Positions 3,024 to 8,619 of a stretch of 64,000 nucleotides of DNA are shown piece after piece. The stretch lies in the NCBI RefSeq assembly GCF_003628535.1, contig NZ_RBCI01000013.1:62001-126000 (forward strand), read 5' to 3'. Origin of the DNA: Flavisolibacter nicotianae. GTDB lineage: Bacteria; Bacteroidota; Bacteroidia; Chitinophagales; Chitinophagaceae. The notes beneath the pieces are model-generated. The model saw only the letters and a list, made by a program, of their open reading frames with translations, was not told where the DNA came from and made no database searches. Positions within the stretch are counted from its first letter, which is position 1. Each line of letters opens with the position of its first letter. The position numbers and the translations under genes were made by a program.

Positions 3024-3027
3024 TGGG

Positions 3028-3101
3028 TCGGGATGACTGGATTCGAACCAGCGGCCTCTTCGTCCCGAACGAAGCGCGCTACCGGGCTGCGCTACATCCC
3101 G
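3028..3101 (-). tRNA. tRNA-Pro (anticodon CGG)
   Basis: The minus strand folds as a cloverleaf. The acceptor is CGGGATG/CATCCCG, the D-arm is GCGC/GCGC, the anticodon stem CTTCG/CGAAG encloses loop TTCGGGA (anticodon CGG, decoding CCG), and the T-arm GCTGG/CCAGT encloses TTCGAAT. The discriminator is A (base 3028). CCA does not appear to be encoded. It lies just downstream of the remnant of a second tRNA-Pro, so before the element integrated the two proline tRNAs were probably adjacent and co-transcribed. Confidence 0.95.
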
Positions 3102-3130: not shown

Positions 3131-3167
3131 CGAAAAATAAAACAGGCCTTATACAATAAGACCTGTC
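3131..3167 (-). terminator. Hairpin terminator 3' of the tRNA-Pro remnant
   Basis: Stem ACAGG-CTTA / TAAG-CCTGT with one mismatch (3142-3166), then a minus-strand run TTTTATTTTT. It fits as the original terminator of tRNA-Pro(GGG) before the element was inserted, or as an attenuator between the two tRNAs. Confidence 0.6.
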
Positions 3168-3213
3168 TTTGTCGGGTGGACTGGATTCGAACCAGCGACC
3201 CCTTGCACCCCAT
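3168..3213 (-). repeat. att direct repeat, integrase-distal (tRNA-Pro 3' end remnant)
   Basis: These 46 bases are identical to 8542-8587. They contain the anticodon-loop-to-3'-end half of tRNA-Pro(GGG). The upstream half of the tRNA is missing here (the sequence diverges at 3214), so this copy cannot make a tRNA. This is the expected mark of a tyrosine recombinase that uses a tRNA 3' end as attachment site. Confidence 0.9.
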
Positions 3214-3310
3214 GGAAGAGAGTAATACCCTTGCAAATGTGTGCAAATGCATGATTTACAAAGCTTTTGTATGAAATGCTATTTTTAATACTGTTTACTT
3301 TTTAGAAATC

Positions 3311-3329
3311 TGACCCAAACCTGACCCAA
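3311..3329 (+). promoter_or_regulatory. Paired TGACCCA motif, candidate integrase arm site (left)
   Basis: Two copies of TGACCCAA start 11 bases apart (3311 and 3322), followed by TTGGTT. The same pair with the same 11-base spacing occurs at 8438-8456, at the other end of the element, about 100 bases inside the att repeat in both cases. Position and phasing of about one helical turn suggest arm-type sites bound by the integrase N-terminal domain. Confidence 0.6.
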
Positions 3330-3555
3330 TTGGTTAATAAATGATTTTCCTATTTCAAAAGTTACCTAAAAAGACAGACTTATGCTATTAAAAAATTAGT
3401 GCATCAATATTCCTTCCACATGGAAGAAATACCCTTTTAGATGCCATTTCTAGCAGGTCTGTTCTTTTTCAACTCTTATATGCAGTTACTTTTTATTTTT
3501 TTACAGAGGCAACCAGCGCCTTTATCTAAACTGCGATTTTCAAAGGCACGGGCTA

Positions 3556-3632
3556 CCCCAATTTGCTACGCAAAGCATCCGGGTGCTGACGTTGAGGTGG
3601 GGGGTGCTTTTGCACATCTGTAAAAATTGGGG
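3556..3632. repeat. Extended GC-rich stem-loop
   Basis: Outer arms CCCCAATTT / AAATTGGGG (3556-3564, 3624-3632). The inner arms GCAAAGCATCC / GGGTGCTTTTGC (3570-3580, 3602-3613) form 11 pairs, two of them at most wobble, with one bulged T. The loop is about 21 nt. It stands out in an AT-rich surrounding and lacks a T-run on either side, so it is not a simple terminator. Function unknown. Confidence 0.6.
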
Positions 3633-3684
3633 CAGAAATATATCAATGATGTTAATCAAATATGTTATAAAATGTTATTTATAA

Positions 3685-4023
3685 TTATTCCAATACAGCA
3701 GAGATTTCATCTGTACAACCAATTCTTTCAGCCATAATAAATACCTGAGTTAGAACAGCTGCGTATGCTTCTTCTAATGTTATTCTGCCAGCTTTAATCT
3801 TGAGACACATAATCTTGTTCTGCAAAGGCCATCCATATTCATTTATTCTTTGCATAATCTCTTCCCGGATAAAATGACTATGGGCTAATAACAATTCTTT
3901 GCTGTGTTGTTTGTAGGGTGATCTCTCAACCTGAAGCATTAATGACATTCCATTTGTAAATGCGTTTTCAAATGCTTTTCCTAGCTTGATGTATTCCGCT
4001 GAAGATTTGAATATTCCAAACAT
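3685..4023 (-). CDS. Unknown 112-aa cytoplasmic protein (element cargo)
   Basis: I do not recognise this protein. It has no signal peptide or membrane segment and looks largely alpha-helical. It is hydrophilic with two Cys (about 92 and 103). It starts with ATG at 4023 and stands alone, with 234 bases to the next gene on the opposite strand. Its codons are A/T-biased like the rest of the element, which supports transfer together with it. Its role as cargo, regulator or excision helper cannot be decided from sequence. It lacks an evident HTH motif. Confidence 0.65.
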   Translation of the reverse strand: MFGIFKSSAEYIKLGKAFENAFTNGMSLMLQVERSPYKQHSKELLLAHSHFIREEIMQRINEYGWPLQNKIMCLKIKAGRITLEEAYAAVLTQVFIMAERIGCTDEISAVLE

Positions 4024-4257
4024 TTTTAAAGTTTTGGTTTAGGGAATTAAGATATAATGAATTCTCTATTGCTGCAAGTCTGTAGTATTCTTCACTTTGA
4101 TAATGAAAGTATTTTGAACTTAATGAAATGGAAACTGACATTAAAACATTATGGCTTTTGGACGGGAATACAACATTTTAAGAAAGTCTGATGTTATGTC
4201 CATACGATAATCGAATGAAATCAAGAAAATAGTTTACATTGATATCACTTTAATTTT

Positions 4258-4416
4258 ATGACATATATAATTTTCACTCTTCTTCGCCTTGCTACCAAAG
4301 CTGATTTACCGACTGATATAGTGCTGTTTGTATTGTTCTTGATTATTGTGTTTATCGTGAAATACAATCAGAACGATGATAATGATAAGCCACCGAAGAA
4401 AATATATATTGAGTGA
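4258..4416 (+). CDS. Small single-pass membrane peptide, 52 aa (element)
   Basis: ATG at 4258 to TGA at 4414. The peptide has a mildly hydrophobic start, then a strongly hydrophobic stretch (about residues 22-34, VLFVLFLIIVFIV), then a charged tail rich in Asn, Asp and Lys (QNDDNDKPPKK). One helix with a charged cytoplasmic or periplasmic tail fits a toxin-like, regulatory or channel-associated peptide, but nothing specific can be claimed. It is the only plus-strand gene of the element and lies between two minus-strand genes. Support is modest because it is short. Confidence 0.4.
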   Translation: MTYIIFTLLRLATKADLPTDIVLFVLFLIIVFIVKYNQNDDNDKPPKKIYIE

Positions 4417-4502
4417 AAGGCTTTTTATTAGTTATAGATATTCTACTATTTATTTGACTTCTAAATTCTCTTGCAGGAGGCCTATTCTAAATGGATAGGC
4501 TT

Positions 4503-5252
4503 TTATTTTTTGTGCATTACAAACTTTTTGATTTCGCTATTTGGAATGATAGTAGCTGATCTAAGTGTATCGTTATACATGATAGAATAGTTATCGGTTT
4601 TCCCGATGAAGTAAAAGTGTGGAGTAGATACAAGGGAATCTTTATTGGTGATGATAGTGGTGCCAACGTATCTACCACTTTGAACATAATACGCATCAAT
4701 AGCAGAGTATAAAGCGATTAATAATGCAGCTATACATGCTGAAGAAACAAGCTTCAAAAGATGGCTATTTCTCTTTAAACCAGTTTGTTTTTCAATCCAA
4801 ACTTGAATTATAATAAGCGAAGTTATAATTGCCGAAAAAATCAATAATCCTAAAGAAGCAATTGTTAGTAGATAATTATTAGAAATGTAATAAATAAGTA
4901 AGGCCGGCAAAAAACAAAAAGGCAAAATCGTAACTATGAATTCGTCGAAACTGTCTCGTTTTTCTAATGTAGCGGAGTTTGCTGCTTTTGGAAAAGTCTT
5001 TTTTGTAGCAAAACCATATAACTCAAATTCAGAAAGGGAATCATTAGTCAGAAATGTTATAGTTAGGTAGATGGTTGTAATAATAGCGTACAAAATAATT
5101 TCATCTGCAAATAGCAATAAAGACTCCCCCGCTGAAATAAAATATTTGATTGGAAGGCTAAAATATCCATAGTAAACACTATATCTTATTATCCCCAAAA
5201 CAACTAACAATGCAGAGTAATAGGGTATCATACGTTTAAGTAGATTGAGCAT
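4503..5252 (-). CDS. Unknown polytopic membrane protein, 249 aa (element cargo)
   Basis: I do not recognise a family name. I count about five hydrophobic segments (about residues 10-28, 45-68, 107-124, 128-150 and 168-187). Between the second and third lies a polar loop, and the protein ends in a soluble domain (about 190-249) containing an HFYFIGKTDNYSIMY stretch. Such a tail, which looks like a small beta domain, is seen on other uncharacterised Bacteroidota membrane proteins. It starts with ATG at 5252, and the secreted-protein gene at 5299-6012 lies 46 bases upstream on the same strand, so the two are probably one transcription unit. Confidence 0.7.
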   Translation of the reverse strand: MLNLLKRMIPYYSALLVVLGIIRYSVYYGYFSLPIKYFISAGESLLLFADEIILYAIITTIYLTITFLTNDSLSEFELYGFATKKTFPKAANSATLEKRDSFDEFIVTILPFCFLPALLIYYISNNYLLTIASLGLLIFSAIITSLIIIQVWIEKQTGLKRNSHLLKLVSSACIAALLIALYSAIDAYYVQSGRYVGTTIITNKDSLVSTPHFYFIGKTDNYSIMYNDTLRSATIIPNSEIKKFVMHKK

Positions 5253-5298
5253 AGTTTTGGCTTAACATTTTGAAGTGAGAAATAGAAAGAGTTTGAAC

Positions 5299-6012
5299 TT
5301 ATTCTTGCTCCCTAAATGTTTTGTAGTTCATAACCTTTTGCTTTGCTTCTAAGCTATTTAATTCTTGTAGCGTTGTATTAGTAAAATAAATTGTGACGGC
5401 AGCAATGCATCCGTCATAATTATCCATATTTCCTTTTCCAGAGTTGTAATGACTTTCATACATACTACAATCAACACTTAAATACCTACTATCATTTATT
5501 CCACCCGTTACAACCCAAACACTTGTTCCCAAATGCTTTGATTTTATCTTCTTATATCCAGGTGTATCTTCAGGAGTATTTGTGATACATTCTTTTTCTA
5601 CATATGATATAGCATTTTGGGCATTCAAGGAGTTATATTCTTTCATACTTACCATACTACGGTCAGATTTCAAATCAGATAACAATTGTTTAAGCAATCT
5701 TTCGAATTCATTTTTTTGATTTGCTTTGAACTTAAATTCGATGCTGATACTTGAAAGCTTCTCTTTTACGAATTGGAATTCATAATCTGCTTCACCATAA
5801 ATATCAAATGGCGTTCTTGCATATTCGATATGGTAAGCTCCCAAAAAATCAGCTTGCAAAACAGTTGCTTCACCTTTGAACATAGATTTTATTTGTTTTG
5901 CGTCCTTAAAAGATATGCCTAAAGGGAAGCTATCTAAATCAGCCATTTTCAGTTGTGCTTGTACAATTGCAGAAGCAGAAATGACAAACACTGTTAGAAG
6001 AATTCGTCTCAT
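5299..6012 (-). CDS. Unknown secreted protein, 237 aa (element cargo)
   Basis: A classic signal peptide (MRRILLTVFVISASAIVQAQ) with probable cleavage after residue 18-20, and no lipobox. The mature part is about 215 residues, polar and mixed alpha/beta, with a conserved-looking core around SVWVVTGGINDSRYLSV and three Cys (about 141, 181 and 202). No catalytic motif is evident. It is the first gene of a probable two-gene unit with the membrane protein just downstream, so the pair may act together at the envelope. It may be a defence, immunity or adaptation cargo, but the sequence does not show which. Confidence 0.7.
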   Translation of the reverse strand: MRRILLTVFVISASAIVQAQLKMADLDSFPLGISFKDAKQIKSMFKGEATVLQADFLGAYHIEYARTPFDIYGEADYEFQFVKEKLSSISIEFKFKANQKNEFERLLKQLLSDLKSDRSMVSMKEYNSLNAQNAISYVEKECITNTPEDTPGYKKIKSKHLGTSVWVVTGGINDSRYLSVDCSMYESHYNSGKGNMDNYDGCIAAVTIYFTNTTLQELNSLEAKQKVMNYKTFREQE

Positions 6013-6657
6013 AAGAAGTAGCTTTAGTTTTAATTGATAGTCCTAATATACCTGTTTTATTATACCCATGCATACTGTATGGGCTTTCTTACTATTTCTT
6101 GTTTCTACCGGTCAGTATTTTGAAAGTGATAATAACTATTATCACTGTGAAAACGAACCCAGTTAAGCCAACAATGTCCTTTCCAACAATTCCACCAATG
6201 AGCATTGATTAAGACAATAGCCAAGCAATAAAAACAGCAACTTATCAGAACTATCCTCAATTAATGTCGATGTTCATTTGGTCAAAATACGGCTTCAAAT
6301 GGTCAGTGTTCTTGAACGAGCACAGCCCACTTAGTAAGTCCTAACTCAATTTCTACTTTTTTTCAACGCAGAAATCATTTAAATGATTCCTCATGGAAGG
6401 AGATATTATTTTTGGCATCGTGCATTAAGTTTTTTCAGGTACATTAGTTTAGTTAAGTCTTAGCATCGAAATACACTAAACGCGTGAAAAAATATTTTAA
6501 GAAATGATGTTGATAAGTTGTGAATATCAGCTACTTACCCTATCTTTAGGCGTTCTTTGAACTTCAGCTATGACTTATTCAATAATGTCAGTTTTGATAA
6601 CGCTTAAGATGTACTGAAGGATTTAAAGGCAATGGCTGTAGGCCATGTCAGAATAAT

Positions 6658-6713
6658 ATCATTAGCCCTGTTTTGGAGGCGGAAACGCCAAGGGCTGCAG
6701 GATTTCTAATGAT
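6658..6713. repeat. Three-tier hairpin with GAAA tetraloop
   Basis: Outer stem ATCATTAG/CTAATGAT (6658-6665, 6706-6713), middle stem GCCCT/AGGGC (6665-6669, 6691-6695), inner stem GGCG-GAAA-CGCC (6778-style tetraloop at 6678-6689). A GNRA-type loop on a GC clamp is typical of folded RNA. It has no adjoining T-run. Confidence 0.5.
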
Positions 6714-7061
6714 GTTCCCCAATAATTTACTGTGGGTTTTGCTGAAGCTTATGTAAGACATAAGCCTAAATGTTTATGACCTAAAAACCCCGAGAATAAA
6801 ACTAAAGTATCTAAGGGGTTAAACATTTTCTCCTAAGTGGAAAAGTTTGACCCTATGAGGAATAGTAAAGGCCAGTAATCAATCAAGGAGTCTGATAAAA
6901 ACTACACGGATTTTCTCTCATCTAGGGTAGGTTGAAAACCTACCTTAGCCCTGGCATGTAAAAAAGTGAATGAATACTTTGAACTGGTTATACTTTAATA
7001 GTGTTTTGGGGAAATTGCATCTACTCTACAAGGGTTTTCTATAAGCTAGCCTTTGATTTAA

Positions 7062-7106
7062 ATGGGAAAAACAAAAAAGCAGCAGCTATTTCTAACTACT
7101 GCTTTT
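7062..7106 (-). terminator. Terminator downstream of the integrase
   Basis: Stem AAAAGCAG/CTGCTTTT (7075-7082, 7099-7106), followed on the minus strand by a T-rich run. It is about 130 bases past the integrase stop. Confidence 0.6.
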
Positions 7107-7236
7107 GAGTTGCTTCAAGCTTCAACTTCTAGTTAAATTTGACAACTACAAATAACAAGTCAAACATACATAGAATTTGCTTTTCAATTCTCAAAAAGTT
7201 AGGTACAAAATTTTTTTCTATCCCTAAAATAGCCAT

Positions 7237-8445
7237 TTAGCCCAGCCTGCTTATAATAGGCAATGATGTCGCAGGCTTTGTTACGCTAACATAGTTTCTC
7301 ATTGTTGTTTCCACTGTACTATGGCCCATCAAGTAAGCAACCTCTGTCAGTACCATACCCTGTTGAACAGCCCTAGTGCCAAATGAATGCCTTGCAGCAT
7401 ATAAATCCCTATCACCTAATCCCAGTTTTTCCATTACAGGCTTTAAAACACGTCTTTTAAGCATTTTGTCATCAATGGTTAACCCCTTAGGTGAAACGAA
7501 GACAAAATCTTCAGATTTTTTGTTTTCTAATAATGGTTCCAGTAATATTGAAAGCTCTGTCGAAAGTGGTAAGTACCTGACATTCTGCATTTTAGTGCCT
7601 TTTTCTATCCTAGATGCATGATTAGTGCCTTTAATAGTGCGGGCAAAGGTTTCAGATATTTCTATCTGACTAGATTCAAAATCAATATGTTTAACCTTTA
7701 AGCCTATTGCTTCAGCATTTCTCACGCCTGTATGGAAGATAAATGCAAGGAAAGGATAGTAGTGGGAATGTTTGAATCTGCTGGAAGTGGGACAATGAGT
7801 ATCATTTTTAATTGCATCTAAAAAGGAAACTATTTCATTTTCCTGTAATGGGTTCCTTCTAGAGCATTTGATTTTTCTTTTCTCCCGCTTTTTACATACA
7901 TCTTTAAGGGGGTTTCGTTCAATGATACCAGAATCAACAAGCCAAGTGAGGAAGGTGTTTAGATAAGATAGCCGTCTGTTATAAGTAGTAACAGCCCAGA
8001 TTTCACTATTTAATCTTTCGGCAATGGAATAGATAGGAACTTGAATTCTCTTTTCTAGCCATTTCCTGATATATAAATAGTCTATAGAGTTATCAATGTC
8101 TACATTCCTGAAATGCTTAGCCCATTCATTGAACTTAGCAGCTAAATCATTGAGAAATAATAATTTTTCCTGCTTGGTGGCTTCTGAGAGGTCTTTTTTG
8201 GCTTTAATTGGCTTAGTTGTAGGCAAGTAGCCATACTTTTCTAAAGAAGTATCGAAACTTCTCCGAAGTATGTCTAGTTTGATTTCTGCAACCTTGACAT
8301 TAGCAAAATGGAGATTTTCAGGATTAAAGTAATATGGGAGGTTTAAAGAATATCTTTCTCCCGCATACCTCCACCTGAGCCTAATTCTTCCTTCGCAATT
8401 AGTAATACTGATTTCTCCCTTAGGAGTTTTTAATTTCTGACCCAT
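7237..8445 (-). CDS. Tyrosine recombinase / integrase with DUF3596-like arm domain
   Basis: A site-specific recombinase, 402 aa, of the phage-integrase family. The N-terminus (about 1-60, GxIRLRWRYAGERYSL) resembles the DUF3596 arm-binding domain. A SAM-like core-binding domain follows (about 90-200) and then the catalytic domain. Catalytic residues seen are Arg in TGVRNAEAIGL, a Lys-containing beta hairpin, H-x-x-x-x-R in AARHSFGTRA, His in LMGHSTVETTMRNY, and the nucleophile Tyr in NYV. It is full length. It starts with ATG at 8445, about 100 bases from the tRNA-Pro 3' end, and is transcribed away from it, the usual layout for tRNA integrations. One copy of the TGACCCA motif overlaps its start codon, so integrase binding could repress its own expression. 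Confidence 0.95.
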   Translation of the reverse strand: MGQKLKTPKGEISITNCEGRIRLRWRYAGERYSLNLPYYFNPENLHFANVKVAEIKLDILRRSFDTSLEKYGYLPTTKPIKAKKDLSEATKQEKLLFLNDLAAKFNEWAKHFRNVDIDNSIDYLYIRKWLEKRIQVPIYSIAERLNSEIWAVTTYNRRLSYLNTFLTWLVDSGIIERNPLKDVCKKREKRKIKCSRRNPLQENEIVSFLDAIKNDTHCPTSSRFKHSHYYPFLAFIFHTGVRNAEAIGLKVKHIDFESSQIEISETFARTIKGTNHASRIEKGTKMQNVRYLPLSTELSILLEPLLENKKSEDFVFVSPKGLTIDDKMLKRRVLKPVMEKLGLGDRDLYAARHSFGTRAVQQGMVLTEVAYLMGHSTVETTMRNYVSVTKPATSLPIISRLG

Positions 8446-8456
8446 TTGTGACCCAA
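8438..8456 (+). promoter_or_regulatory. Paired TGACCCA motif, candidate integrase arm site (right)
   Basis: TGACCCAT at 8438 and TGACCCAA at 8449, 11 bases apart, match the left pair at 3311/3322. The first copy covers the integrase start codon (8443-8445), which would couple site occupancy to integrase expression. The function is inferred from symmetry. Confidence 0.6.
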
Positions 8457-8541
8457 ACTGGTTTGTATCAGGTCAGTTGAGAGTGAGATTTCTTTAAGAT
8501 AAGGCAATAAAAAAGCCTTCAGTATCAACTGAAAGCCTTTT

Positions 8542-8587
8542 TTTGTCGGGTGGACTGGATTCGAACCAGCGACCCCTTGCACCCCAT
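8542..8587 (-). repeat. att direct repeat, integrase-proximal (inside tRNA-Pro)
   Basis: These 46 bases are identical to 3168-3213. They cover the tRNA-Pro(GGG) 3' half from the anticodon loop to just past the discriminator. The intact tRNA continues to 8619, so integration regenerated a functional tRNA at this end. Confidence 0.9.
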
Positions 8588-8619
8588 ACAAGTGCGCTAC
8601 CGGGCTGCGCCACCACCCG
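8546..8619 (-). tRNA. tRNA-Pro (anticodon GGG)
   Basis: Minus-strand cloverleaf: acceptor CGGGTGG/CCACCCG, D-arm GCGC/GCGC, anticodon stem CTTGT/GCAAG around loop ATGGGGT (anticodon GGG, decoding CCC/CCU), T-arm GCTGG/CCAGT around TTCGAAT. The discriminator is A. It shares its 3' half with the repeat at 3168-3213 and is the attachment site of the element. Confidence 0.95.

Follow-up and report, generated by a model that had tools for sequence, protein, structure and literature searches.

A small integrative element, probably non-autonomous, in tRNA-Pro(GGG) of Flavisolibacter nicotianae and its relatives in a tRNA-targeted family

We analysed a 64,000-nucleotide stretch of the Flavisolibacter nicotianae genome (contig NZ_RBCI01000013.1 of assembly GCF_003628535.1, positions 62,001 to 126,000; hereafter the window) that carries a small integrative element in a tRNA-Pro(GGG) gene. 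The element, 5.37 kb long, is bounded by a perfect 46-bp direct repeat (TTTGTCGGGTGGACTGGATTCGAACCAGCGACCCCTTGCACCCCAT), identical copies of which lie at 3168-3213 and 8542-8587 (Table 1). On the tRNA strand, and with the tRNA ends placed by ARAGORN, the repeat runs from the anticodon loop to 3 bp beyond the 3' end of tRNA-Pro(GGG). The complete tRNA gene stands at one end, 100 bp from the start of a tyrosine integrase gene, and the displaced 3' part of the tRNA stands at the other. The G+C fraction is approximately 0.48-0.55 in the flanks and 0.30-0.38 in segments that fall fully within the element. With an integrase beside an intact tRNA gene, a displaced fragment at the far end and an unoccupied site in relatives (see below), the locus has the features of a tRNA island, and an integrative element in tRNA-Pro(GGG) is well supported. 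An initial annotation, made from the sequence alone, had proposed a 5.4-kb element from the repeat, the intact tRNA, the adjacent integrase and the A+T enrichment, all of which were borne out by the coordinates, ARAGORN, Pfam and the G+C profile. A search of the genome with the element stretch returned three matches, the element itself and two tRNA genes.

Table 1. Positions in the window of the element's features and its surroundings; the last row gives other loci referred to in the final paragraph
Feature	Position	Strand	Basis
tRNA-Pro(CGG), adjacent to the target when the site is empty, outside the element	3026..3101	-	ARAGORN; same pair in G003 and G012
Terminator-like hairpin, outer edge of distal att	3139..3169	-	Terminator prediction
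Distal attachment (att) core, displaced 3' part of tRNA-Pro(GGG), anticodon loop to just past the 3' end	3168..3213	-	46-bp repeat
Putative distal arm-type pair TTGGGTCAGGTTTGGGTCA, 97 bp inward from the distal att core	3311..3329	-	Pattern search
Cargo gene, 112 aa, orphan	3685..4023	-	Weak library matches only
Cargo gene, 249 aa, hydrophobic stretches (by eye)	4503..5252	-	Nothing over cut-off in libraries; weak relatives aligned
Cargo gene, 237 aa, signal-peptide-like start (by eye)	5299..6012	-	Nothing above the Pfam or NCBIfam thresholds; no PADLOC or PHROGs match
Region with no convincing gene	6013..7074	.	Open reading frame list; stop-to-stop pieces
Terminator-like hairpin 3' of the integrase gene	7075..7106	-	Terminator prediction; fold z -4.8 against 30 shuffles
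Tyrosine integrase, 402 aa	7237..8445	-	Pfam Phage_integrase E 2.3e-20, Arm-DNA-bind_2 E 6.9e-5
Putative proximal arm-type pair TTGGGTCACAAATGGGTCA, spans the integrase start codon	8438..8456	-	Pattern search; similar layout in 35/39 loci
Element hairpin and T run directly after the tRNA	8505..8544	-	By eye; absent from the predicted terminator list
Integrase-side att core, largely inside intact tRNA-Pro(GGG)	8542..8587	-	46-bp repeat
tRNA-Pro(GGG), complete target gene	8545..8619	-	ARAGORN; Rfam tRNA 56.5 bits
GIY-YIG loci	L170, L176, L188 (G009); L173, L178 (G011); L175 (G037); L057 2384-2656; L102 7952-8203		

Besides the integrase, three open reading frames (ORFs) exceed 100 aa, all of them on the minus strand, in place of the four cargo proteins counted initially; among shorter ORFs, a few with 50-60 aa are doubtful. 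The approximately 1.2 kb that separate the integrase from the 237-aa gene contain no ORF longer than 60 aa. None of the three cargo proteins belongs to a known family in Pfam, NCBIfam, PADLOC or PHROGs, and their library matches below the cut-off or with weak expectation values (E) were taken as chance. The earlier description of the cargo as wholly unknown needs qualification for two of the proteins. Relatives of the 249-aa protein, 22-33% identical to it, occur in 9 of the 343 other genomes of the family sample, with no constant neighbour, by eye, among the surroundings listed. The 237-aa protein has two weak relatives in 393 other genomes and is 28% identical to the front of a 365-aa protein of genome G253, the rear of which is an aspartyl-protease domain (here and below, G and L numbers denote genomes and loci). 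The 112-aa protein had no match in the 343 other genomes. Structure predictions from the single sequences were too poor for use, with a mean predicted local distance difference test score of 52.8 for the 249-aa and 34.3 for the 237-aa protein. Beside the integrase, no relaxase, mobilisation, transfer, replication or phage gene was recognised with Pfam, PHROGs or NCBIfam, in agreement with the initial annotation, and plasmids gave no match to the integrase (E 1e-20) or to any of the three cargo proteins.

Comparison with relatives indicated what the site looked like before insertion. The initial annotation had staked the element on an empty allele, and two were found in relatives from the genus: the GGG-CGG tRNA pair stands with no element between, 128 bp apart in G003 and 125 bp apart in G012, and joining the flanks of the window at the repeat gives this pair with 69 bp between the tRNAs. 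A tblastn search of the stretches from 16 relatives, about half of which hold this site, found no match to any of the three cargo proteins. Other relatives carry variants. The tRNA pair is inverted relative to a SpoU gene in G003 and is 1.57 kb apart with other sequence between in G006; G014 has a second, imperfect copy of the tRNA 3' end 342 bp downstream. In G011 a different element occupies the same tRNA beside the same SpoU neighbour; its integrase is 41-43% identical, its far end was not found, and its 730-aa protein is 31% identical to one in the large G441 element. Since empty, variant and occupied alleles all occur among relatives, the site has been used repeatedly. As a separate observation, downstream of tRNA-Pro(GGG) in G009 (L060 2043-2343) the tRNA-Pro 3' end is present in two extra copies spaced by 113 bp, and by eye a hairpin and T run come after each of them.

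Hairpins border the insertion on both sides. By position, the one at the outer edge of the distal att would be the former terminator of the tRNA, and the one directly after the intact tRNA gene may be a replacement supplied by the element. Terminator prediction in the region gave 5 sites against 3.7 expected from shuffles. The Rfam scan reported the two tRNAs and nothing else. We also noted a GC-richer patch within the A+T-rich element (3514-3634) with a strong predicted hairpin (z -3.2, minus strand), which is one of 9 windows below -3 in a scan of both strands and has no Rfam match.

To place the element among relatives, 84,980 species were scanned once for short peptide patterns, a procedure that will have missed members. 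The scan found 40 loci, 37 in Bacteroidota and 3 cyanobacterial; by their tree labels most of the Bacteroidota loci are from Chitinophagaceae, some being labelled only Bacteroidota. In 30 of the 37 a tRNA gene adjoins the integrase, for Ala in 14, Pro in 12, Met in 3 and His in 1. Within the family sample, the integrase was matched at E 1e-40 or better in 16 of 394 genomes, the window's included. It is 39-64% identical to 11 aligned relatives, its frame is open, and it has the residues invariant in the 12 aligned sequences, of which it is itself one. Our search of the literature, covering titles and abstracts with limited access to subscription papers, returned no description of this element family.

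A pair of short repeats lies inside each end of the window element. Each pair has an 11-bp period (TTGGGTCAnnnnTGGGTCA) and consists of two GGGTCA copies, and the two pairs share one orientation; the pattern TTGGGTMWNNNNTGGGTMW has exactly two matches in the 6.09-Mb genome, at the two element ends, and the reversed control has none. A GGG pair (GGG, period 11 or 12, at least three of the next four letters alike) was present near the integrase start in 35 of 39 loci, compared with 0 at each of eight shifted positions (32-39 loci each); the 39 are 36 of the 37 Bacteroidota loci (L150, which is cut, being left out) together with the window, L104 and L105. The four letters after GGG, of which 14 kinds occur in the second copy, differ between loci and agree within a pair: agreement was 3.65 of 4 letters over 17 distinct pairs versus 1.63 when re-paired, and none of 5000 re-pairings was as high. 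Two reservations apply to this test: agreement is favoured by choosing the best pair near each start, and the elements share ancestry. Only the first of these is addressed by the shifted control. We infer that the pairs are arm sites of the integrase.

The same pairs served to locate the far ends of relatives. Five elements could be bounded by the tRNA repeat alone (the window, 5.37 kb; L102/L132, 4.35 kb; L104, 8.18 kb; L098, 12.65 kb; L125, 2.98 kb), and all five have a pair internal to the distal repeat. L134, where a repeat was seen at 105 bp only, before its integrase, was not counted as bounded. When 23 genomes were searched with the pair pattern, two matches flanked one element in eight: the window's genome, G254 with L104, and six with new elements (13.5, 14.1, 16.4, 18.2, 20.6 and 22.1 kb). 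Beyond the distal pair, all six have an exact repeat of the tRNA whose length ranges from 43 bp to 60 bp or more, 60 bp being the limit of the search. Searching with each element's own letters found the distal pair in the window and L104 only, because the two ends often differ in letters, and the looser pair pattern outperformed it. In L125, G437 and G439 it is the 5' half of the tRNA, not the 3' half, that is used, as in some known islands.

The bounded elements differ in content. A module comprising an AAA_24 ATPase, DUF3871, RadC and a 115-aa protein is present, whole or in part, in 8 of the 11 (8-22 kb); the names come from a domain scan, except RadC, which was recognised by reading the sequence. 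The six elements of 13.5-22.1 kb match the ATPase, DUF3871 and RadC, four of them also the 115-aa protein, and in G438 the ATPase match is split over two frames. L098 and L104 have two module parts each. The three compact elements (the window, L102 and L125) have no part of the module, and L150, bounded on one side, has no match to it. In the window's own genome, a 68-residue DUF3871 match containing a stop (E 1.7e-14) lies near a contig end (G000 C2 1693-1896) and is perhaps what remains of a larger element.

Thus the window element has a GGG pair at the start of a related integrase and a second pair inside the distal att, and lacks the module of the larger members. We consider it quite likely that this is a compact, probably non-autonomous integrative element of a tRNA-targeted family living mostly in Chitinophagaceae, and it is probably a reduced member of that family, which also includes larger (8-22 kb) module-bearing elements with DNA-handling genes that are absent here. 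In the mechanism proposed here, the integrase would bind an arm-site pair of the TTGGGTCA type (11-bp period) inside each of the two ends and would recombine the att core at the tRNA-Pro(GGG) anticodon loop with its counterpart on a circular form. The tRNA is kept whole by the repeat, with the element providing a hairpin behind it. As one arm pair spans the start codon of the integrase gene, the integrase, once bound, may also act as a repressor of that gene. In the absence of any recognised replication, transfer or phage gene, movement between cells would presumably need a helper or passive DNA uptake. The element could insert, and perhaps leave, by its own integrase, its ends and integrase frame favouring mobility and the gene-poor 1.2 kb favouring decay.

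A comparable arrangement occurs in a prophage. In the KplE1 prophage, according to the accessible part of the report, integrase sites on the attL side overlap the intS promoter and the gene is repressed by its own product (PMC2951348). The candidate sites described here likewise overlap the start region of an integrase gene, which suggests a similar self-repression, although in the text available the KplE1 sites lie on the promoter (PMC2951348) and the putative pair here lies on the start codon.

Several observations weigh against this interpretation. The rule for the ends was confirmed in 8 of the 23 genomes searched; of the other 15, eight gave one match and seven none. Three of these seven hold L098, L125 and L150, where the pairs have other letters or spacing. 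The reversed control, silent in the window's genome, matched in 4 of 22 other genomes, 32 times in G364. The distal letters are clearly unlike the proximal ones in 5 of the 11 bounded elements (L098, L102, G434, G439 and G441). Since integrase similarity was the criterion by which loci were selected, part of the layout that they share reflects common descent. The nearest integrase relative, L117 (64%), has a proximal pair and no bounded element. Finally, the gene-poor stretch of the window element is also compatible with decay.

This last point leads to the alternative that fared best, in which a larger element of the same family lost its module and left behind a stranded remnant that no longer moves. 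This overlaps with a compact mobile element as proposed here, the sole difference being whether the element is live today. In addition to the gene-poor stretch, it draws on the distribution of compact forms, which fall at three places in the integrase tree: the three need three label changes, and the starred branches force at least two. Since shuffled labels do as well, the tree shows scatter of the compact forms and nothing more. It also draws on L132 and L134, which occupy the same chromosomal place at tRNA-Ala (73% identical over 6.9 kb of flank, 86% over the 2.1 kb of tRNA, integrase and HNH gene) and differ in their interiors. Within 9 kb L134 has a match to RadC as well as ORFs whose beginnings resemble those of other module genes, and L132 has neither. 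These genes appear to belong to the L134 element, a membership that we infer, since its far end is unplaced. Against a remnant, the window integrase has kept an open frame and the invariant residues, both repeat pairs and both att cores are present, the att copies are identical, and the empty stretch holds no clear trace of a module protein, its stop-to-stop pieces giving weak matches only (best E 0.028) in the collected loci. Overall, we regard a dead remnant as possible but doubtful.

The initial annotation had raised a phage satellite or a defence island as possible identities, and neither gained from the library searches. A satellite with unrecognised genes, packaged by a helper phage, would fit the small size, the integrase in a tRNA and the lack of transfer genes, and the larger relative L098 has a VapE-like domain, VapE being a gene type of some satellites. 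However, PHROGs gave no known phage genes and no convincing cargo match (best E 0.01, to a family of unknown function), and neither Pfam nor PHROGs recognised a replication or packaging-interference gene. Integrase relatives were found in 8 of 50,697 phage records at E 1e-10, and the three covering more than 80% of it are only 26-27% identical. Viral contigs matched neither the integrase nor the 237-aa protein, and a single 44-residue match of the 249-aa protein (E 7e-4) was not accepted. We consider a phage satellite unlikely. A defence island, its cargo protecting against phages, appears to us improbable to the same degree: the mobile context and a weak AbiH match, below cut-off, in the larger relative L131 speak for it, but PADLOC assigned none of the four proteins (three cargo and the integrase) to a family. 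Slightly less probable again is that the compact elements are satellites of their own family's larger members, retaining integrase, arm sites and cargo and using the module of a full-length relative, where the cell contains one, for replication or transfer, since the differing end letters in 5 of 11 bounded elements weaken the idea of letter matching, and the window's genome yielded no further pair and no intact DUF3871 gene, DUF3871 being the sole helper family sought there. If it were true, arm letters could help decide which integrase moves which element.

Small integrated elements of several kinds invite comparison. Riemerella anatipestifer, the host of one of them, belongs to the Bacteroidota, as do the hosts of the NBU-type (non-replicating Bacteroides unit) elements of Bacteroides, which are mobilizable, carry an integrase and target a tRNA; tycheposons are integrated and depend on others for transfer. 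In contrast to the NBU type, the window element has no mobilisation gene recognised with Pfam, PHROGs or NCBIfam. The islands collected by Islander (3760 with a 3' tRNA fragment and 159 with a 5' fragment) resemble it in the tyrosine integrase with a tRNA, the displaced fragment at the far end and the crossover in the anticodon loop, as far as the accessible text describes them (PMC4383910). It differs from them in its very small size and in the repeat pairs that recur throughout the family at the start codon of the integrase gene; the available part of that paper makes no mention of such pairs (PMC4383910). The island of R. anatipestifer, compared by description only, is likewise small and tRNA-adjacent, with a tyrosine integrase and a direct repeat; the portion of the report at hand gives 10 kb, 12 ORFs, tRNA-Arg, a 53-bp repeat and demonstrated excision (PMC6764341). 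Tycheposons and phage-inducible chromosomal minimalist islands (PICMIs) are both named in PMC11389934. PICMIs are integrated and need others for transfer (PMC10803314), as this element probably does. They have a reduced gene content, are located beside fis and carry a core set of three genes whose proteins serve excision and replication, according to the available text (PMC10803314), and no such three-protein set was recognised here.

Viewed as a compact family member, the element provides a clean example, on a small scale, of mobile DNA of a widespread type, with an unusually clear anatomy. The repeat pairs provide a simple rule that located both ends of relatives up to 22 kb, and the family supplies a natural series of integrases whose putative binding sites differ. 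It is also a testable case for the origin of compact, gene-poor elements beside larger ones, for which L132 and L134 form a natural pair in the study of element shrinkage or cargo swap.

A further arrangement was noticed among the collected loci, in which small ORFs for GIY-YIG nucleases adjoin tRNA genes and copies of tRNA 3' ends, some as tandem arrays of constant period. G009 has arrays of 351-bp period with tRNA-Val 3' ends (5 and 3 matches at two contig ends), and G011 one of 430-bp period with tRNA-Pro 3' ends (3 matches at a contig end). Our literature search returned nothing on this arrangement. Matches occurred in 7 of 19 genomes, 20 in total. Twelve loci were inspected: eight have a tRNA or tRNA 3' end, six of these with more than one 3' end, and four have neither. 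All 13 matches in the collected loci, which are tRNA-centred and partly duplicates, lie within 250 bp of a 3' end. The GIY-YIG ORF and its tRNA 3' end may be a tiny mobile unit of its own.

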